IMG/VR virus record: IMGVR_UViG_3300017744_000077
Coordinates: 1-32,343 of that record
Length of the DNA: 32,343 nucleotides
Direction: 5' to 3' (one strand)
From: a virus
Part shown: piece by piece, positions 17,091 through 24,548 of the stretch
How the letters are laid out: each line of letters opens with the position of its first letter
How positions within the stretch are numbered: the stretch's first letter is position 1
Notes under the pieces: model-generated
What the model was told of the DNA's origin: nothing
Database searches by the model: none
The model's input: only the letters and a program-made list of their open reading frames with translations
Made by a program: the position numbers and the translations under genes

Positions 17091-18845
17091 CTACAAGGTA
17101 TATTGAAGTAATTCCTCGTTTCTACTATTAACGTCAAATATATTTCCAAGTTCACTTGCATAATATGTTTGTCGTATTCCTGGATAGTCAATTAAAGGAA
17201 ACTGACTACCTAAGCTATCTACGTATTTGAATGACATTGTCTTTTTGTCAAACTCTACTATACTTGTTCTATTGTCAAAACACTGGTCTATATGTTCTTT
17301 ATCTGCGTTTATCTCAACCATTCGAGACTGCATAAATTTTGCAGTTTCGTCAGATATGTTGAAAGTGTCAAATATATTACTTATAGACATTACTGCTTGT
17401 TGTGGTCTCGTTCTCACGTGATTCAACATAGGTTGTAATAGATAAGGTTTATCTCTTTTAGGTAATCTAAGATAACGTCTCATTTTCTCACTATCTTTCA
17501 TATAACCCTCAATCGACACAGAATCTTTACCATAAGTATTATTAGCTTCCATATTTCTTATCTTGTTGTCAATCGCTCTATTATACAACGATTTAAACAT
17601 TCTAGACTGATTAAGGTTTGGGTCGTATGCAAACTCGTCACGCATACTCTGCCCTATTTCATAAGCAGTGTCTACGACATTAGACCAGAATATAGACCAG
17701 TGTCGCATTTTGTCGGGATTCAATGTTCCTGCGTGGTATCTTATCTCTATACCTTGATTGGCTTGAAAGTGACAATGTAGATTAAATCCATGATAACGCT
17801 TATCGTTATATTTGTCGTTTGTAAAAGAACCATTGTCATACCAAAAATCGACGAATGCGTCTCTACTTGTAATATAAGAAAAGTCGTTAAACGACTGACT
17901 GACAGGCTTACACCACCTACCATTTAATCTAGACGGAGGAACCCACGTATAGACGTGAGGCTCTATCAACTTAACTAGTAAAGTTAAGACAGAAAAATGA
18001 TACCAGTCATAATCTCTGCAGTCTATATGTAAATGCATACCACAATGTCTACTTACGTAGGCACCATTCGCATGCTTCAATACATTACATATCGTCTGAA
18101 CGTCCTTATGGAGGATATCGCCTCGTCTAGGTTGCATAACTACTTCTGTCCCATGCTCGTGTTCTCCTCTTCTTACGGAACCGTCTCCAGGAATATGTAG
18201 TCTACCTAAATGCCTATTGTCTTCAGGGTCGTTACTTCTTAACAAAGTATCGGGTTCCCATTCGTTTGATTGGTCATAACCCATTCCTTCTAATCTACTT
18301 TGTGCTATAGACATATCTAGTTCAAATCTCAAATTACCTTCATCTACATAGTTATGGAAATTAGTCTCTATCTCAATTCCCATATATCTTTTAGAAGGTA
18401 TTAATTTGAAAGTGTCTCTAGAATAGCAGTCTTTGTAAGGACTAGTAAAAGACTCTGCAGTTTTAACGTATTCGTTAGAATATACGTCCCATGAAGGATA
18501 ATCGTCAGATGGTTGATAACAATCGTCGCAATAATATTCTCCTTCATTTTCGTCGTAGACAAAATTGTCATGAGAGTCTTCATGTCCACATTCATAACAA
18601 CTAGATATGTTCTCACTATAACAATCGTCGCACCAAGGGTCTGAATTAACCCAATAGATATTGTCTACATGGGTTGTTTCGTCGCATTCTCTACACGTCG
18701 TGTAGTCCTCGTCGCAACTCTCACATATTTCGTCGTTATCGGCATTATAAACCGGTTCGTCTGTAGTTATGTCTGTGCTACAATCTGCACAACACGCAAT
18801 TTCAGACTCTATCGCTTCGTTAATAGCTCTATCTGTCTGTGGCAT
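17091..18845 (-). CDS. Amidoligase-like enzyme with N-terminal zinc-finger array
   Basis: 584 residues. Residues 18-110 carry six CxxC pairs (19/22, 41/44, 51/54, 72/75, 83/86, 106/109), enough for three zinc ribbons or LIM-like fingers. The catalytic part follows: MGIEIETNFH (155-164), GDGSVR (220-225), GTEVVMQPR (232-240), CGMHLHID (268-275) and GIEIRYHAGT (365-374). This is the pattern of the Amidoligase_2 family (glutamine-synthetase/GCS-like carboxylate-amine ligases), predicted to join an amine to a carboxylate using ATP. The next gene upstream encodes a class II glutamine amidotransferase-like protein and overlaps it by 17 bases, the known neighbourhood of this family. AGAGG precedes the ATG. 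The zinc fingers may bind the protein or nucleic-acid target; the substrate is unknown. Confidence 0.8.
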   Translation of the reverse strand: MPQTDRAINEAIESEIACCADCSTDITTDEPVYNADNDEICESCDEDYTTCRECDETTHVDNIYWVNSDPWCDDCYSENISSCYECGHEDSHDNFVYDENEGEYYCDDCYQPSDDYPSWDVYSNEYVKTAESFTSPYKDCYSRDTFKLIPSKRYMGIEIETNFHNYVDEGNLRFELDMSIAQSRLEGMGYDQSNEWEPDTLLRSNDPEDNRHLGRLHIPGDGSVRRGEHEHGTEVVMQPRRGDILHKDVQTICNVLKHANGAYVSRHCGMHLHIDCRDYDWYHFSVLTLLVKLIEPHVYTWVPPSRLNGRWCKPVSQSFNDFSYITSRDAFVDFWYDNGSFTNDKYNDKRYHGFNLHCHFQANQGIEIRYHAGTLNPDKMRHWSIFWSNVVDTAYEIGQSMRDEFAYDPNLNQSRMFKSLYNRAIDNKIRNMEANNTYGKDSVSIEGYMKDSEKMRRYLRLPKRDKPYLLQPMLNHVRTRPQQAVMSISNIFDTFNISDETAKFMQSRMVEINADKEHIDQCFDNRTSIVEFDKKTMSFKYVDSLGSQFPLIDYPGIRQTYYASELGNIFDVNSRNEELLQYTL

Positions 18846-19857
18846 TAGCTTCCTCTTCCCACTTTAAGCTGTCGTAGTATTGTTCTTCAGATATCTGTTC
18901 TTCAGACTTTATTTCGCCTGAGACATTATCTAGAAAATACCACTTCTGCTGTGTTTCGTCCCAAAACCACTCCTCCGGTCTACCTCCATAGACTTGTGAT
19001 AGATGTAATGTCTCGTTATCTATCATAGACTGAGGAACTATAGGTTCCCATTCGTCGTCTGTAAGACTCCAGGCATTCGTCTGAACTTGTGTTGGGTATT
19101 TGTTAATCTGATATTGATATACTCTAGAATCGTATTTAAATGATTCTTTGACTACATTCATTTTCTCGTCAGTAAACTTACTAACGTCAAACGTGTAAAG
19201 TGTATTTTTATTTAAACTAAATACGTCTGCTTCAATGTTATTCGCTATCAATGCGTCTTCAATAAATTCCGATTCACTAGCATAAAATAACGTCTTCATT
19301 GACGGAATGTATGCTACGTGTAAAGGTCTATTACTTTCTCTGCATAGATATAATACCATTGGATTTGCTTTGACAAAAGACAACGCAAAGTCTGAGTCAA
19401 AATCTTTGACTGCTTCTTGTATGTTGTCGTTGTCGTTAATTGCTTTAAATATCAATTGAGAGTCTACCGGACATTGTTTGTCTAATTGAGTCTCCATTTC
19501 TTTGACATTGTAAACACAGCCATTATGAGTACCGACGACGTCGCCTACTCTGAAAGGGTGTGCATTTGATTTGACTATTGCTCCTTGTGTAGCAAAACGA
19601 GTATGTCCTAGCAATATAAATGAATCGTCTTTTAATGACTTAACAGACTCGTTATATTCCAAAGTGTCTACAAATTTACTAGACGGCAATAGTGACTTGT
19701 GAATCCTAGTCGAACTACCGACTCTTGCAATTCCTGACGATTGACTACCTCTAGTCTCGCTATCTATTGCAATTTCCCTCAATACCTTTTTGACAATATT
19801 TAATTGCTTCGTAGTATAAGGTGTCGGTGATTTCGCTATTCCATATATTCCACACAT
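18829..19857 (-). CDS. Class II glutamine amidotransferase-like Ntn hydrolase
   Basis: 342 residues. It starts with MCGIYGIA: removal of Met would expose the catalytic Cys2. Further GATase-II signatures are RGSQSSGIA (36-44), GHTRFATQG (84-92), NAHPF (98-102), GTHNG (109-113) and VDSQLIF (131-137), matching the glutamine-binding pocket of GlmS/PurF-type domains. There is no synthase domain; the C-terminal 140 residues are acidic and Trp-rich. It should release ammonia from glutamine, or act as a thiol peptidase on gamma-glutamyl bonds, for the adjacent amidoligase (17-base overlap). GGAG is eight bases before ATG. Confidence 0.9.
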   Translation of the reverse strand: MCGIYGIAKSPTPYTTKQLNIVKKVLREIAIDSETRGSQSSGIARVGSSTRIHKSLLPSSKFVDTLEYNESVKSLKDDSFILLGHTRFATQGAIVKSNAHPFRVGDVVGTHNGCVYNVKEMETQLDKQCPVDSQLIFKAINDNDNIQEAVKDFDSDFALSFVKANPMVLYLCRESNRPLHVAYIPSMKTLFYASESEFIEDALIANNIEADVFSLNKNTLYTFDVSKFTDEKMNVVKESFKYDSRVYQYQINKYPTQVQTNAWSLTDDEWEPIVPQSMIDNETLHLSQVYGGRPEEWFWDETQQKWYFLDNVSGEIKSEEQISEEQYYDSLKWEEEANATDR

Positions 19858-19994: not shown

Positions 19995-20231
19995 TTAATT
20001 TGTCCCTATAAGGGCATAAGAGTTTTTTACTAGTCTAGCTAGTCTTATTGTCCTAGCAGACTGATTAGCTAAACTTCTCTTATTATGTTGCCATACATAA
20101 AATAAATCTTTTGTCAAGTTCTTATACTTGCGTCTTAAAAACCAAGCACGTCTGTTATAATCTAACTTTCTTTGCTCAGAAAGGGACAACGTAATTTGTC
20201 GTCCCTTATTATCTTTCTTCATTACTATCAT
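19995..20231 (-). CDS. Small basic unknown protein, 78 aa
   Basis: Unrecognised, strongly basic (MIVMKKDNKGRQITLSLSEQ; RRAWFLRRKYKNLTKDL; SARTIRLARLVKN). The charge suggests nucleic-acid binding. Two ATGs, at 20231 and nine bases later, are possible starts. It follows the upstream gene with one base between stop and start. Confidence 0.55.
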   Translation of the reverse strand: MIVMKKDNKGRQITLSLSEQRKLDYNRRAWFLRRKYKNLTKDLFYVWQHNKRSLANQSARTIRLARLVKNSYALIGTN

Positions 20232-20232
20232 T

Positions 20233-20553
20233 TTATAGTCTATCTCTCGTTATAATGTGTAAGCATTCTAACCCGTCGTTTACTGATTCATATCCGTTTG
20301 TCATTAGGTTAGCCATCTCTACGCATTCCGTCTTATTAATCTCTAAATCGGCGACTAATATATTTGCGTCTACTCTTACATTTAATATCGCTTTTTTAAT
20401 ACGTTCTAATTCATTGACTATACGTCTACGTTCTTTTATCTGTTCATCTATCATTTTACGTCCTCTCTCTTTCCTAGACATCATAGAGTCTAGCTTATTG
20501 TTTATATACAAAGTCTTAATCAAATCTTTTGTCTGTTTTGTGGGGTTAGACAT
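20233..20553 (-). CDS. Unknown helical protein, 106 aa
   Basis: Unrecognised. Residues 20-60 (MMSRKERGRKMIDEQIKERR, then RIVNELERIKKAILNV) form a basic, probably coiled-coil helix; the C-terminal third is more mixed. It overlaps the upstream gene by one base and precedes the basic 78-aa gene, so it is part of the first leftward transcript from the promoter at 21027-21055. Confidence 0.55.
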   Translation of the reverse strand: MSNPTKQTKDLIKTLYINNKLDSMMSRKERGRKMIDEQIKERRRIVNELERIKKAILNVRVDANILVADLEINKTECVEMANLMTNGYESVNDGLECLHIITRDRL

Positions 20554-20969
20554 TACCCGTCAATCTGTCTGTTACGTCTTGATTGTCTCTTTGCCTTGCG
20601 TAGACTTCTAAGTCCTTTTTCTACGTTTGACGTTTCTAGAACGTGTCTTCGGCTGTGTGTCTCATATTTGTCCATATAATTGCTATCGACTCTTAATATT
20701 GTATTGTCCTTTAAATACTTGTTAGCGTAAAGGGCAATGACTACGTCTGACTCTGCTTTAGACAAGCTCTCGAATACGTCTACGTCTCCTGCTTTGTCCT
20801 GATATCTAGGACGGACAAGCTCTATTGTAACGTCTACCCTTCCTTTATTGTCTTCTATTGCATAAACCTCAATTCCTACCTTTGGCTTCGGGACGTCGAT
20901 TTCTCGTGTCCATAACTGACTGCAACAAGGACATTTATCAGTAATCGTCTTTTTCATTGTTTCCGACAT
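20553..20969 (-). CDS. Unknown protein, 138 aa, with CPCC motif and basic tail; first gene of leftward operon
   Basis: Unrecognised. It begins MSETMKKTITDKCPCCSQLW, with CxCC that could hold a metal, followed by a small alpha/beta region, and ends in a very basic tail (GLRSLRKAKRQSRRNRQIDG). A basic tail suggests nucleic-acid binding. AAAGGA lies six bases before the ATG. As the first gene behind the leftward promoter it is likely expressed early and could be a transcription or host take-over factor; that is inference from position. Confidence 0.55.
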   Translation of the reverse strand: MSETMKKTITDKCPCCSQLWTREIDVPKPKVGIEVYAIEDNKGRVDVTIELVRPRYQDKAGDVDVFESLSKAESDVVIALYANKYLKDNTILRVDSNYMDKYETHSRRHVLETSNVEKGLRSLRKAKRQSRRNRQIDG

Positions 20970-21026
20970 ATTATTTCCTTTCGTCGTTTTTGAAATGCGT
21001 TGTAGATGTAATTATTTGCATAGCAA

Positions 21027-21055
21027 AATATACAACTTTTTGACGACAATAACAA
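21027..21055 (-). promoter_or_regulatory. Leftward promoter of the early block
   Basis: On the minus strand -35 TTGTTA (21055-21050), 17-base spacer, -10 TATATT (21032-21027). Transcription would start near 21020 and give a leader of about 50 nt before the ATG at 20969. This is the best match in the 274-nt divergent region 20970-21243. Confidence 0.5.
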
Positions 21056-21099
21056 GCGACGTTCGGGTTTATTATGTCCAGCCTCAACTATTTTGTCGG

Positions 21100-21160
21100 G
21101 GTGGATTGAAAGCTAGGCGAAAGTCTAGCTTTCAGCTATAGTCCAGCTTACAGGTGGATT
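21100..21160. repeat. Hairpin flanked by 8-bp direct repeats in the divergent control region
   Basis: GAAAGCTAG (21108-21116) and CTAGCTTTC (21125-21133) form a perfect 9-bp stem with an 8-base loop. GGTGGATT occurs at 21100-21107 and again at 21153-21160. The 9-mer AGTCTAGCT of this hairpin recurs in the larger hairpin at 21689-21725 on the other side of the single rightward gene. It may be an operator, replication or regulatory element; no U-tract follows. Confidence 0.45.
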
Positions 21161-21208
21161 CTCACAGGATATAAAAAGAAAAAAAGATTATAAAAGACAA
21201 TATAATCC

Positions 21209-21237
21209 TTGTGCCTTAACTTAGGAATGACTATTTT
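21209..21237 (+). promoter_or_regulatory. Rightward promoter, leaderless type
   Basis: -35 TTGTGC (21209-21214), 17-base spacer, -10 TATTTT (21232-21237), six bases before the ATG at 21244. There is no usable ribosome-binding site, so the transcript would start at the start codon, as proposed for 11898 and 15322. Confidence 0.45.
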
Positions 21238-21243
21238 ATAGGT

Positions 21244-21600
21244 ATGAGTAACAAAATAACGCAGGGATTAGCAGAACTACTAAAAGCCAAAGGTATATCT
21301 GTTAAAGAAATGGAAGCACACAATGTTTCTGTTTCTGTTCCGGCGACAAATGAAGGACGCGTTGTTGCTAACGCGTCGAAGTTGGCACAAAGCAACGATA
21401 AATCCGTCTCAAAAGACGGAAACAGAATCTTGGAATTAGTTCAGGATTCATCAAGAGAGAAAGAGTTAAATTCTCTAATACGTAAACACGAGGGTGTAAT
21501 GACTTATACAAAGCCCCTTAAAAATGCCGAAACCGGCGAAACAGAACAGACTGAAACGTTGCCCCAATTAAAGGACAATTTTGAGTCTAGGAAGGTATAA
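21244..21600 (+). CDS. Unknown protein, 118 aa, lone rightward gene of the control region
   Basis: Unrecognised. The N-terminus MSNKITQGLAELLKAKGISV and KEMEAHNVSV is helical; the middle is charged, and the C-terminus (YTKPLKNAETGETEQTETLP) looks flexible. It faces away from the leftward early block, has its own promoter and sits between two hairpins with a shared 9-mer. Its place suggests a regulator or early protein, but no DNA-binding motif is clear. Confidence 0.55.
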   Translation: MSNKITQGLAELLKAKGISVKEMEAHNVSVSVPATNEGRVVANASKLAQSNDKSVSKDGNRILELVQDSSREKELNSLIRKHEGVMTYTKPLKNAETGETEQTETLPQLKDNFESRKV

Positions 21601-21609
21601 TATAACCAA

Positions 21610-21640
21610 AGCCCCGATTTCTTAGGATGTTATCGGGGTT
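21610..21640 (+). other. Hairpin 1 of a three-hairpin array after the 118-aa gene
   Basis: AGCCCCGAT (21610-21618) pairs with ATCGGGGTT (21632-21640), nine pairs including one G-U, with a 13-base loop. It lies ten bases after the stop codon. No T-run follows, so it is not a classic intrinsic terminator but may act as a 3' stabilising or processing structure. Confidence 0.45.
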
Positions 21641-21644
21641 CCCC

Positions 21645-21671
21645 TATACCGGCTATAATTTAGCCGGTATA
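21645..21671. other. Hairpin 2: perfect 11-bp stem with 5-base loop
   Basis: TATACCGGCTA (21645-21655) and TAGCCGGTATA (21661-21671), loop TAATT. Perfect pairing on both strands; no T-run on either side. Confidence 0.5.
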
Positions 21672-21688
21672 ATGGGTATCGTCGGGGG

Positions 21689-21725
21689 TTAGAGCTAGAC
21701 TGAGTGAGCGATAGTCTAGCTCTAA
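21689..21725. other. Hairpin 3: perfect 13-bp stem with 11-base loop
   Basis: TTAGAGCTAGACT (21689-21701) and AGTCTAGCTCTAA (21713-21725). The arm shares AGTCTAGCT with the hairpin at 21108-21133. The stem would be very stable; no T-run follows. Confidence 0.5.
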
Positions 21726-21781
21726 AGGCAGTCACTATTTATCTAGCGATACAGCTCATTGCTTTTTTTATTATTATATAC

Positions 21782-21815
21782 AAAAAAATACCCCAGGATT
21801 TTACACCCAGGGTAT
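21782..21815 (-). terminator. Intrinsic terminator of the two-gene leftward cassette
   Basis: On the minus strand ATACCC (21815-21810) pairs with GGGTAT (21793-21788), with a short inner GGG/UCC pairing, and is followed by seven T residues (21788-21782). It lies ten bases after the stop of the 64-aa gene. Confidence 0.65.
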
Positions 21816-21824
21816 CTTCGGTTA

Positions 21825-22019
21825 CTATTTACAACACTGACCATGTCCGCAATGCTCGTCTTCTTCGTAGGTTGTACGTTCAAGTGCTTCAATCCTAACA
21901 TCCCAGTCCTTAGCATACTTCATACCTAGGTTGTAACCCTTGCTAAACTCTGTGCTCAATGCCTGTACTATGTTAAGTAGCACACTGAATATCAAAGCCA
22001 TTATTAGTAATTCAATCAT
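21825..22019 (-). CDS. Small membrane protein, 64 aa, with C-terminal Cys/His cluster
   Basis: Residues 2-21 (IELLIMALIFSVLLNIVQAL) form one transmembrane helix; the rest is soluble and ends in EDEHCGHGQCCK, a metal-binding-like Cys/His cluster. AAAGGA precedes the ATG by seven bases. It is the second gene of a leftward cassette with its own promoter (22333-22361) and terminator. It could be a membrane-active early protein, for example an exclusion or lysis-control factor; a holin is less likely with only one segment and this tail. No family recognised. Confidence 0.6.
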   Translation of the reverse strand: MIELLIMALIFSVLLNIVQALSTEFSKGYNLGMKYAKDWDVRIEALERTTYEEDEHCGHGQCCK

Positions 22020-22040
22020 TGTATTTCCTTTCGTTGTGAC

Positions 22041-22056
22041 GGGAGCCGAAGCCCCC
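22041..22056 (-). other. UUCG-tetraloop hairpin between the two cassette genes
   Basis: In the minus-strand RNA GGGGGC-UUCG-GCUCCC pairs completely (one G-U); on the plus strand the same bases would have an A-C mismatch, so the fold belongs to the leftward transcript. No U-run follows. It may stabilise or separate the two coding regions of the transcript. Confidence 0.5.
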
Positions 22057-22066
22057 GCCGTTATTG

Positions 22067-22291
22067 TTATTTAGATTCTCTCCAACCCTGTACTCTTTTG
22101 CCGTAGTGGGAGTTAGATTTTACAATCTCAAGTACTAAGTTGCCATCATCCGTATATGATGTCTCATATATTTCATAGTAATCATCATCATTGTACTGGG
22201 CTAAGGTTCTTATTATGATACGCTTCTCTGTATCAATCTTGGTCCCATTCTCTGCTATGCGTACTATATCATCTATACTATTTGTTTCCAT
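22067..22291 (-). CDS. Small unknown protein, 74 aa, first gene of leftward cassette
   Basis: Unrecognised. The start at 22291 (METNSIDDIVRIAENGTKID) is set by AAAGGA seven bases upstream; the frame is open further upstream but lies in the leader. After a short helix the protein alternates strands (KRIIIRTLAQYNDDDYYEIY; GNLVLEIVKSNSHYG) and ends basic: a likely small beta-sheet protein. It is transcribed from the strong promoter at 22333-22361. Confidence 0.6.
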   Translation of the reverse strand: METNSIDDIVRIAENGTKIDTEKRIIIRTLAQYNDDDYYEIYETSYTDDGNLVLEIVKSNSHYGKRVQGWRESK

Positions 22292-22332
22292 TGTATGTCC
22301 TTTCATTGTTATGTTTATTTCTGTCATGATAG

Positions 22333-22361
22333 ATATTAGGGGAGCCAATATTAAGAGTCAA
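22333..22361 (-). promoter_or_regulatory. Near-consensus leftward promoter
   Basis: On the minus strand -35 TTGACT (22361-22356), exactly 17 bases, -10 TAATAT (22338-22333). The start would be near 22326, giving a 35-nt leader to the ATG at 22291. It is the closest match to the bacterial sigma-70 consensus in the window. Confidence 0.7.
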
Positions 22362-22378
22362 GTAAATAATGCAAATAA

Positions 22379-22865
22379 ATAAAAATAAATAGCGAGGGAG
22401 AATATACAATATTTAACGAAGGTTATCAGAAAACCAAATTTTCAACCTTTTTTTGGAATTTCCAATTAGGAATACCCCCGCCGGCTTTTTAAAACACAAA
22501 AGGGACACACAAAAACCTGCTATTTTTCAACCAAGTAGCAAATTTAGGGGTTATAACGGTATATAATATAAATTTCGGGGCTTTCAAAAATTTTGCGATT
22601 TGTTTTTTAGGAACACCCTCTCCGAGCATCGAACATTATTTTAAATTAAGATTTAATAATTTAAGCATTTATTGAACATCGAACATTAGTGTTTTTTTTC
22701 GTCCTTCGGACTGTTAAAGTTAGTCTGTTTGCTTTACTTGAGTCAATATATTTCTTTATTGTTAACCCTTTTTTTGTATTTGTAGCCAAATATAGAATAT
22801 TGAGTACTAAGAACATTGAGTTATTGACGTGTCGTGCGTTTTTTTAACAAAAATACAAGTTTTAT
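22379..22865. other. Gene-free AT-rich region between divergent promoters; possible origin or packaging region
   Basis: About 490 nt without a credible ORF on either strand. It holds several T tracts (around 22447, 22690, 22766 and 22832), a 12-bp direct repeat CATCGAACATTA at 22627-22638 and 22677-22688, and between these repeats a very AT-rich stretch of A/T runs. A small stem GTCC-TTC-GGAC follows a run of eight T near 22700. Repeats flanking an AT-rich segment are what a replication origin would look like, and a packaging start is also possible since the packaging genes lie downstream; nothing proves either. Confidence 0.4.
22627..22688. repeat. Direct repeat CATCGAACATTA, two copies 50 bp apart
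   Basis: Copies at 22627-22638 and 22677-22688 are identical over 12 bases, and GA-CATCGAACATTA matches one base more to the left with a single difference. The 38 bases between them are almost only A and T. The second copy has an internal GAACAT repetition. Confidence 0.55.
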
Positions 22866-22893
22866 TTGACTTGTGTAGTAGTTTTTATGTAAT
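22866..22893 (+). promoter_or_regulatory. Rightward promoter of the packaging/structural block
   Basis: -35 TTGACT (22866-22871), 16-base spacer, -10 TGTAAT (22888-22893). The start would lie near 22900, with a leader of about 25 nt carrying GGGAG before the ATG at 22925. The TTGACT hexamer is shared with the leftward promoters. Confidence 0.5.
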
Positions 22894-22924
22894 TTGCATA
22901 CACAATTAACAATATGGGAGTATT

Positions 22925-23230
22925 ATGAAGAAAAAAACAATGGGATTACATATAGGTGGTCATGATTATAATATATTAGAACTATCATTGGAACATGAGG
23001 ATAGTAGTAAAGAATTATACGGCAGACATCTAGTAAAAGAGAATTTAATACTTATTAATAAGGATATCCACGATTCAAGAAAGAAAGAGACCTTGATGCA
23101 TGAGATATTACACGCATTGTTCTATAATTATGGATTAGAGCACGATGAAAGCAAAATAGATGCAATCTCCAATGGATTGTTTCAACTAGGCGTAGCGGAC
23201 TATTTATGGAAGAAATCACAGAAAAAATAA
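22925..23230 (+). CDS. ImmA/IrrE- or SprT-like HExxH metallopeptidase-family protein
   Basis: 101 residues. KKETLMHEILHALFYNYGLE carries HEILH (59-63), the zinc-binding HExxH of metallopeptidases, and the downstream HDESKIDAISNGLFQLG (73-89) supplies the acidic third-ligand region. The short form is typical of phage-encoded minimal peptidase-like proteins. It may process a phage or host protein; the substrate is unknown. GGGAG lies six bases before ATG, and the gene is first behind the rightward promoter. The 3' end overlaps the next small ORF by 25 bases. Confidence 0.7.
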   Translation: MKKKTMGLHIGGHDYNILELSLEHEDSSKELYGRHLVKENLILINKDIHDSRKKETLMHEILHALFYNYGLEHDESKIDAISNGLFQLGVADYLWKKSQKK

Positions 23231-23370
23231 TAAAAGCCAAAGACCAGCGAAATTATGCGTTGGTTCAGAAGCTTCAACAGCAACTGGATGCATTCATAAT
23301 AAGAAAGCTAGAAGATAAACGAGATATGGAGGATTTTCCAAAACATGGAACAAAAAAAAGAAACAGCTGA
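23206..23370 (+). CDS. Small coiled-coil-like ORF, 54 aa
   Basis: The ORF fills the gap between the metallopeptidase and Nmad1-like genes, overlapping them by 25 and 26 bases in other frames. The product MEEITEKIIKAKDQRNYALV followed by QKLQQQLDAFIIRKLEDKRD reads as one long amphipathic helix. The ribosome-binding site is weak (GGA). Similar helical small proteins are common in phage operons; function unknown. Confidence 0.5.
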   Translation: MEEITEKIIKAKDQRNYALVQKLQQQLDAFIIRKLEDKRDMEDFPKHGTKKRNS

Positions 23371-23704
23371 AAATACAGTATTACATATAAAAGACAACTT
23401 TCCTGAAACAGAACACGAATTTCAAAAGATACTTAATACTATGTATATGACATTTTGTAAAAAACAATTTGACTACGGTCCTGGCAATATTGCTATGGGA
23501 ACTCAATTAAAATCAGAGGAAGAAGTCAATATAGCCTTATTAGGTATTATAGTAAGGTTGAATGATAAGATAAACCGACTAGTTAACCTATCAACTAAAC
23601 ATAACTTCAAGGCACAGAATGAGCCTATAGAAGACGCGTTTTTAGATACTGCTGTATATGCAGTGATGGCGTTAATAGTTAAAAACCAGAAATGGGGTAA
23701 ATAA
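23345..23704 (+). CDS. DUF1599 / Nmad1-like all-helical protein
   Basis: 119 residues. The pattern MTFCKKQFDYGPGN, then NIALLGIIVRLNDKINRLVN and NEPIEDAFLDTAVYAVMALI, is that of the DUF1599 family, also called nucleotide modification associated domain 1 (Nmad1). The family is all-helical and resembles MazG-type nucleotide pyrophosphohydrolases with 'K.xDYG..N', 'R..DK..RL' and 'E.i.Dt..D...Ya' signatures. It is thought to act on nucleotides in phages with altered DNA or to clean the nucleotide pool. GGAGG lies 12 bases before ATG. Its stop overlaps the next start (TAATG). Confidence 0.7.
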   Translation: MEQKKETAENTVLHIKDNFPETEHEFQKILNTMYMTFCKKQFDYGPGNIAMGTQLKSEEEVNIALLGIIVRLNDKINRLVNLSTKHNFKAQNEPIEDAFLDTAVYAVMALIVKNQKWGK

Positions 23705-23820
23705 TGGCTAAAGCTAAAAAAACAACCGCAAAGAGAACTCGCAAGGTATCTTTTTGGGATAGAGTAGCAAACGGAGTAGAAAAACTATTTTCTTCCGCTT
23801 TTCCTAAGAGAGGTAGATAG
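23704..23820 (+). CDS. Small basic protein, 38 aa
   Basis: The ORF is joined by one-base overlaps at both ends (TAATG upstream, TAGTG downstream), which strongly supports translation. The product MAKAKKTTAKRTRKVSFWDR plus VANGVEKLFSSAFPKRGR has a Lys/Arg-rich start and an amphipathic helix with aromatic residues. This could bind DNA or insert into membranes. No family assigned. Confidence 0.55.
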   Translation: MAKAKKTTAKRTRKVSFWDRVANGVEKLFSSAFPKRGR

Positions 23821-24548
23821 TGCCAATAAATAGGTGGACAGAACATGAACTTGAAATTTTAGATAAATATTCTAAAACAAACAAGTCTGCATTCGAATTA
23901 TATCAAATGATTAGAATCCAAGGATATAATAGAACGTATAAAGCAGTGACTAGAAAGATAGAGTCTTTAGGTTTAAGAAAACCTGAAAGATATTCTACTG
24001 GACATGATATGACTATTGGTTACCTAGATATTGAATCAACAGGTTTTAGTGCTAATATTGATACAATGTTGTCTTGGTGTATAAAAGGTAGAAGTAATAA
24101 GAAGGTAGAAGGTGCTTGGATAACAAGAGAAGAGCTTATGTCCAAAAATCAAGATGCTAGAATATTAGAGCTATTAGTAGATGAAATGAATAAGTATGAT
24201 GTTATATATACTTACTATGGAACACACTTTGATATTCCGTTTATTAGGACTAGAGCTTTACACCACGGAACATTTTTTCCGTTACACAACCAAAAATCTC
24301 ATAAAGACTTGTATTATCCTGTAAAATCAAAGTTAAAGCTTCATAGCTCGTCATTAATGGCAGCAACTGAATTCTTTGATATAAAGGGAAAAACAAGGGT
24401 TGAGCCTAAATATTGGGCACAAGCTAGATGGGGAGACGAGAAGTCTATAAAAAAGATATATGAACACAATGTGGCTGACGTAGTAATTCTAGAAAAATTA
24501 CATAGAAGACTAGAAGAATACATCAACCCTACAGTTAACCCGCTATAA
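23820..24548 (+). CDS. DEDD-type (RNase H fold) exonuclease with N-terminal HTH
   Basis: 242 residues, GTG start with GAGAGG six bases upstream. Residues 5-52 (RWTEHELEILDKYSKTNKSA...YKAVTRKIESLGL) form a Myb/homeodomain-like helix-turn-helix. The exonuclease domain follows: GYLDIESTG (D70, E72), YYGTHFDIPFI (D139), and YEHNVADVVILEKLH (H216, D220), the three Exo motifs of the DEDDh/DEDDy class (YprB-like RNase_H_2 family). It would cut 3' ends of DNA or RNA; the HTH may guide it to DNA. The place between the Nmad1-like gene and terminase suggests a role in DNA processing or host DNA degradation. Confidence 0.8.
   Translation: MPINRWTEHELEILDKYSKTNKSAFELYQMIRIQGYNRTYKAVTRKIESLGLRKPERYSTGHDMTIGYLDIESTGFSANIDTMLSWCIKGRSNKKVEGAWITREELMSKNQDARILELLVDEMNKYDVIYTYYGTHFDIPFIRTRALHHGTFFPLHNQKSHKDLYYPVKSKLKLHSSSLMAATEFFDIKGKTRVEPKYWAQARWGDEKSIKKIYEHNVADVVILEKLHRRLEEYINPTVNPL

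Follow-up and report, generated by a model that had tools for sequence, protein, structure and literature searches.

The cassette and its genomic setting

The question raised by this locus is whether a small leftward cassette of two genes, flanked by a promoter and a terminator, is inherited as one functional pair or is a place where small genes are exchanged between fixed regulatory elements. The comparison with relatives points to the second answer. The window, i.e. the whole stretch of DNA analyzed, is a virus record of 32,343 bases whose profile matches indicate a capsid protein of the SU10 type and a terminase of PHROG 38. Cultured phages gave distant matches only, with identities of 20.6–22.0% for the portal and 23.1–32.1% for the capsid protein. 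In the phage collection, the segment 20000–32343 of the window had no DNA match, and genes A and B had none by tblastn at E 1; in the genome_contigs collection, no relative of TerL or of protein B was found. Searches of the window for Rfam families and tRNA gave no matches.

The cassette has a rightward 118-aa gene on one side and, on the other, a 563-base non-coding region preceding a rightward operon, the first gene of which codes for an M78-like peptidase. The five elements of the preliminary description (promoter, 74-aa gene, CUUCGG hairpin, 64-aa gene and terminator) were all recovered, with the coordinates given in Table 1. Its statement that neither protein is recognizable was borne out by the absence of matches in PHROGs, Pfam, NCBIfam and PADLOC.

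Table 1. Features of the cassette and of its immediate surroundings (window coordinates).
Feature	Position	Strand	Basis or remarks
Non-coding control region, from cassette to rightward operon	22362..22924	.	96–97% identity of the window with L018, L020 and L024
Sigma-70-type promoter, TTGACT-17-TAATAT	22333..22361	-	Sequence; recurrence in relatives
Shine-Dalgarno AAAGGA of gene A	22298..22303	-	Sequence
Gene A, 74-aa acidic protein, net charge -5	22067..22291	-	ORF list; no family match
Intercistronic hairpin, GGCGGGGGC-UUCG-GCUCCCGUC	22038..22059	-	Hairpin scan, folding; no U tract after it
Shine-Dalgarno AAAGGA of gene B	22026..22031	-	Sequence; 6 nt past the hairpin
Gene B, 64-aa single-helix membrane protein	21825..22019	-	ORF list, alignment, AlphaFold
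Intrinsic terminator, ACCCTGGG...CCTGGGGT + T7	21777..21819	-	Stem-loop scan, folding
12-bp hairpin, AGAGCTAGACT...AGTCTAGCTCT, then CCCCCGAC (about 21677–21689)	21690..21724	-	Just downstream of the terminator

Two observations were made elsewhere in the window. At 17091–19857 (minus strand), an amidoligase gene adjoins a glutamine-amidotransferase gene, as judged by PHROG matches; a passage of PMC10580990 reports this gene pair from OM43 phages. The motif GCTAGA was enriched in genes (25 co-directional copies versus 13 ± 3.3 in codon shuffles), with 18 of the 25 copies in frame 0 as Ala-Arg. This pattern resembles codon-pair usage, and the motif was set aside.

Mosaic structure of the cassette

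The terminase profile matched 125 stretches, the best 80 of which were used; adding 7 more loci and the window itself gave a set of 88. Fifty of these reach at least 600 bases to the left of the M78 peptidase gene, shorter slots being left out, and after collapsing identical ones 44 distinct slots were obtained, 34 of them with both flanks. Since the loci are mutually related, the counts and p-values given below are not independent.

The swaps can be seen in two relatives whose TerL, like that of the other relatives in the swap comparison, is 98–100% identical to that of the window. Compared to L020, the window showed 98% identity in gene A, 100% in the hairpin-RBS joint and 46% in the tail of gene B (shuffle, 40%). 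Compared to L018, the identities were 44% in gene A (shuffle, 46%), 98% in the joint and 94%/83% in gene B. The control region was 96–97% identical to both, and the terminator 96–98% identical in spite of the different genes. The stretch running from the -35 element to the start of gene A was 100% identical in L020 and 66% in L018. Considering the close relatives together, control region, joint and terminator were 93–100% identical around the swapped genes. Therefore, breakpoints can be placed in three areas: one at the leader, a second either at the hairpin-RBS joint or in the early part of gene B, and one more at the terminator. By these segment identities, the window combines segments of two relatives as a mosaic, and genes A and B are not one heritable unit, their coding segments having been swapped independently. 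In close relatives, the punctuation of the slot is kept, and either gene A or the gene B tail has given way to sequence of chance-level identity.

Recurrence of the gene-hairpin-RBS-gene junction

A strict junction, with stop codon, hairpin, RBS and start codon in succession, was found in 20 of the 44 distinct slots (18 of 34 if only those with both flanks are counted), and the format is therefore not shared by all. Among the remaining slots, some contain other small leftward genes or hairpins with imperfections, and others run into the end of the contig. The frequency of junctions was 24 in 101 kb of slot versus 19 in 600 kb outside it, in the same loci. All the outside junctions come after one late gene of about 150 aa, so that the outside rate is that of one conserved site. 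The hairpin found there starts with TGGAGTGGG in 18 of the 19 cases, with varying loops (e.g., L034 and L060), and a different stem occupies the equivalent late-gene site of L064.

In the 24 slot junctions, 14 distinct hairpins were counted; their loops are of 6 types, and their stems show compensatory changes. Several standard pair types occur at stem positions 1–3 and 7 counted from the loop, and G-U pairs outnumber U-G pairs by 9 to 2. A second type of joint was observed in L062, L075, L058 and L080, where the place of the simple hairpin, between the same kinds of genes, is taken by a larger one that includes a (C/U)UGGSAACAGAAA-like segment.

Promoter and terminator

The near-consensus promoter described before, TTGACT-17-TAATAT, is present and recurs in relatives, but the match alone is at chance level: 19 promoter-like sites were found in 20000–24500, versus 17.9 expected. 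The promoter call is supported because the site recurs in relatives at -64 to -74 with the 17-nt spacing. A TTG(A/C)...TA...T site precedes the first gene at 21 of 24 junctions, compared to 25 of 120 control windows, in most cases 64–74 nt before the ATG and with a spacer of 17 nt. No such site was found before the first genes of the L063 (two genes) and L069 junctions; in L080, L082 and L083, the first gene of the junction is not the first of its operon.

The terminator stem-loop (21819–21784, minus strand) has 14 pairs followed by the T7 run, and its predicted folding energy was -18.7 kcal/mol (z -3.21; 0 of 200 shuffles as good). The arms of the hairpin that lies just downstream co-vary in relatives (99.2% of the cells paired; in 2 pairs, both partners have changed), and a further copy of it is found past the 118-aa gene in L060, L064, L072 and L075–L078. 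A pseudoknot between the loop of this downstream hairpin and a CGATA further on, hinted at by some relatives, was rejected, as it is broken in the alignment of L018, L020 and L024.

The self-contained character attributed to the leftward transcription unit is thus backed by the comparison with relatives. The unit is not part of a longer operon in all of them: L031, L034 and L042 carry two tandem cassettes, with a promoter-like site preceding the second. A gap with a terminator followed by a promoter was found only between such tandem cassettes.

Contents of the slot

In single-linkage clustering of the genes at strict junctions, which perhaps joined MIELL-type and MGLLVMY-type proteins partly through a common tail, the gene B family occurs in second position behind five first-gene families. 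The existence of five partners for the 64-aa family argues against an obligate pair, and the two genes do not make up one functional pair, as they assort independently in relatives. Position is not fixed either for the MTKK family, which provides the first gene at 5 junctions and the second at 3. A scan with the hairpin pattern gave 22 stretches, and 12 loci were inspected; among these, the second gene is a 25-aa membrane protein in L121 and L124, and in L125 a different second gene is followed by a third one. No empty slot was recognized among the 44 distinct slots, which were resolved in part. The extreme turnover of the slot supports the accessory nature that had been suggested for the cassette.

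The MTKK family of small proteins (MTKK...NPRFD) was found in 138 stretches, of which 79 loci were kept (L131–L209). It is widespread in unrelated viral contigs, and its PHROG matches are weak. Beyond the three loci of the window lineage (L131–L133), 75 of 76 contain no window-lineage protein at 1e-10, and the remaining one has a terminase match to the lineage with 25% identity. The MTKK genes could be located by motif at 38 of these 76 loci, and a hairpin of the slot kind lies within 70 nt of the gene in 1 of those 38.

Folding of the intercistronic hairpin and accessibility of the second start

The intercistronic hairpin of the window consists of 9 pairs closed by C(UUCG)G. A scan of the window for C(UUCG)G hairpins, which required 7 or more stem pairs including 5 or more G-C pairs, found no other. 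As had been anticipated, it folds well in the minus-strand RNA only. In this leftward RNA, the folding energy was -17.8 kcal/mol (z -4.35; 0 of 200 shuffles as good), versus -8.6 kcal/mol on the plus strand (z -0.37; 66 of 200 shuffles as good), where folding is weaker because two G-U pairs turn into mismatches. In every natural context tested, the predicted probability of hairpin formation was 0.99–1.00.

The predicted accessibility of the SD-AUG region of the second genes averaged 0.67 (n = 23 non-redundant junctions), compared to 0.49 for 28 other genes of the window (Mann-Whitney p 6e-4) and 0.39 for the first genes. Low values were obtained for the second genes of L034 (first junction, 0.38) and L082 (0.39). 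The open starts of the second genes may merely reflect A-rich sequence. In these predictions, accessibility and stable hairpin fit an insulating or stabilizing role, without proving one.

The two proteins

The gene A ORF is nested in a longer TTG-started frame, and the gene was found at 4 viral loci only. The PDB sequence search with the gene A protein gave no match, and its AlphaFold model was poor (pLDDT 54.5). Compared to its relative in L009, gene A has about 3 non-synonymous and 2 synonymous differences, and selection cannot be measured from so few.

Gene B was found at 14 viral loci, and a profile search gave again 14. The N-terminal membrane segment and a GYxxGM motif are conserved in the family, and the Cys/His tail, HCGHGQCCK, is variable. 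Gene B is under purifying selection, with dN/dS of 0.14–0.24 for the whole gene and of 0.05–0.11 for the first 50 codons compared to L007. The AlphaFold model (mean pLDDT 82.3) consists of one helix, residues 2–57, with a disordered Cys/His tail; the PDB sequence search gave two insignificant matches only. Basic residues are absent before the membrane segment and present after it, and therefore an N-out/C-in orientation is likely. The gene B product would be a membrane-anchored helical stalk that presents the Cys/His tail. The tail (E)EHCGHGQCC(K/R), encoded at 21825–21860 of the window, is common to two otherwise unlike membrane proteins, those of the window and of L078, and this suggests an exchange inside the gene.

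Discussion

The alignments document the mosaicism of the cassette, the recurrence of its joint and the conservation of the joint structure at the level of sequence. The architecture is, with good probability, that of an accessory expression slot with fixed punctuation and exchangeable small genes. It would be an early slot of an uncultured lineage of phages with the SU10 type of capsid protein, and would be transcribed by the host RNA polymerase. The leftward sigma-70 promoter, presumably used early, would drive a two-gene mRNA ended by the intrinsic terminator, with a very stable hairpin between the genes and a strong RBS directly after it. Promoter/leader, hairpin-RBS joint and terminator would make up the fixed punctuation, and in close relatives these elements may serve as homologous joints for the independent exchange of coding segments. 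The hairpin would work at the RNA level, shielding the second RBS from the upstream gene and/or stabilizing the mRNA, and the products of the cassette probably act singly. A more specific version can be put forward tentatively, as it is somewhat less probable than not: the slot might be an insulated expression port, in which a hairpin before a standard RBS frees translation of the second gene from the first. The format would then belong to the slot and not to the genes, and small genes drawn from a pan-phage pool would need no re-tuning.

An RNA role of the hairpin has to be weighed against the view that hairpin and terminator are mere homologous DNA joints left by recombination. In close relatives, the 96–100% identity of the joint across swapped genes agrees with this view. 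However, distant relatives keep the hairpin despite changes of stem and loop, including changes on both sides of the stem (14 hairpins, 6 loop types), and their joints have little homology left to recombine; moreover, the window hairpin is strong only on the transcribed strand, by virtue of its G-U pairs. Mere DNA joints are thus considered unlikely. Still less probable is a dedicated two-component system, e.g., toxin-antitoxin, formed by A and B. Two small genes in one operon, coding for a soluble acidic protein and a small membrane protein, would suit such a system, but the A74 gene has two different B variants as partners, five first-gene families occur together with B-type genes, and PADLOC, NCBIfam and Pfam gave no match. 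Matched-pair inheritance was not observed, and the gene pairings in relatives led to discarding this reading.

Concerning the function of the contents, the small size and single membrane segment of slot proteins recall lysis proteins, either holin or inner spanin, and the 62-aa alternative first gene of L034 matches PHROG 214, 'Rz-like spanin', with 4.9e-5 (that of L002 with 0.0086). Yet the L034 match is one of membrane segment plus coiled coil, A and B of the window do not match PHROG 214, the contents vary more than would be expected of genes with an essential late role, and the promoter, of sigma-70-like type, is apart from the late operon, all of which makes a lysis slot improbable. Exclusion, host take-over and defence evasion, named in the preliminary description, are all possible functions. 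The most likely role for protein B itself is in host-membrane take-over or superinfection exclusion, and even this is only a possibility on the unlikely side. It would agree with the single membrane segment followed, and not preceded, by basic residues, with the early-type promoter, and with the purifying selection on the B family in a slot with high turnover of its content. On the other hand, no homologue of known function was found, and the sole hit to the Pfam SieB profile, from the alternative first gene of L002, is non-significant (E 0.065).

Under the slot reading, the locus offers a compact, testable case of phages keeping accessory genes interchangeable, in which gene content turns over almost completely and short RNA punctuation appears to be preserved by structure. 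The slot would be a hot spot collecting small membrane proteins, possibly of host interaction, in an uncultured phage lineage. If the insulator reading were true, it would be a natural counterpart of engineered expression insulators.

Comparison with known systems

A phage moron carries its own promoter and its own terminator. The cassette resembles it in having both, as far as can be judged from the DNA, and in its accessory gene content; phage loci are called 'accessory' or 'moron' in the relevant passage of PMC7067206. The difference is that the cassette is a lasting slot with exchangeable contents, with no empty site recognized, rather than one added gene. A limited literature search found no title on hairpin-RBS joints between exchangeable genes.

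In the PeSLs (promoter early stem loops) of T4-like phages, a terminator stem-loop and an early promoter lie within one intergenic gap. They mediate gene shuffling, according to the passage of PMC4503421 that cites Arbiol 2010 and Comeau 2014, the latter naming them in its title a composite promoter-terminator motif. The likeness to what is described there resides in regulatory punctuation tied to the shuffling of small accessory genes among close relatives. The window joint differs: located within an operon, between the swapped genes, it combines a non-terminating hairpin with an RBS. The promoter and the terminator of the window cassette lie on either side of the two genes, and the intergenic gap has no U-tailed terminator, whereas the order terminator-then-promoter does occur between the tandem cassettes of L031, L034 and L042.

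As to the hairpin itself, phage intergenic regions commonly contain CUUCGG hairpins, one of which stabilizes a T4 transcript, as stated in the part of PMC8948821 that cites Tuerk 1988. The window likewise has an intergenic stem closed by C(UUCG)G on the transcribed strand. The mRNA-stabilizing role proposed there for such hairpins of T4 and other phages may, by analogy, be that of the slot hairpin. The slot hairpin differs in its location at the joint of exchangeable genes, where relatives have other loops and stems but still a hairpin.
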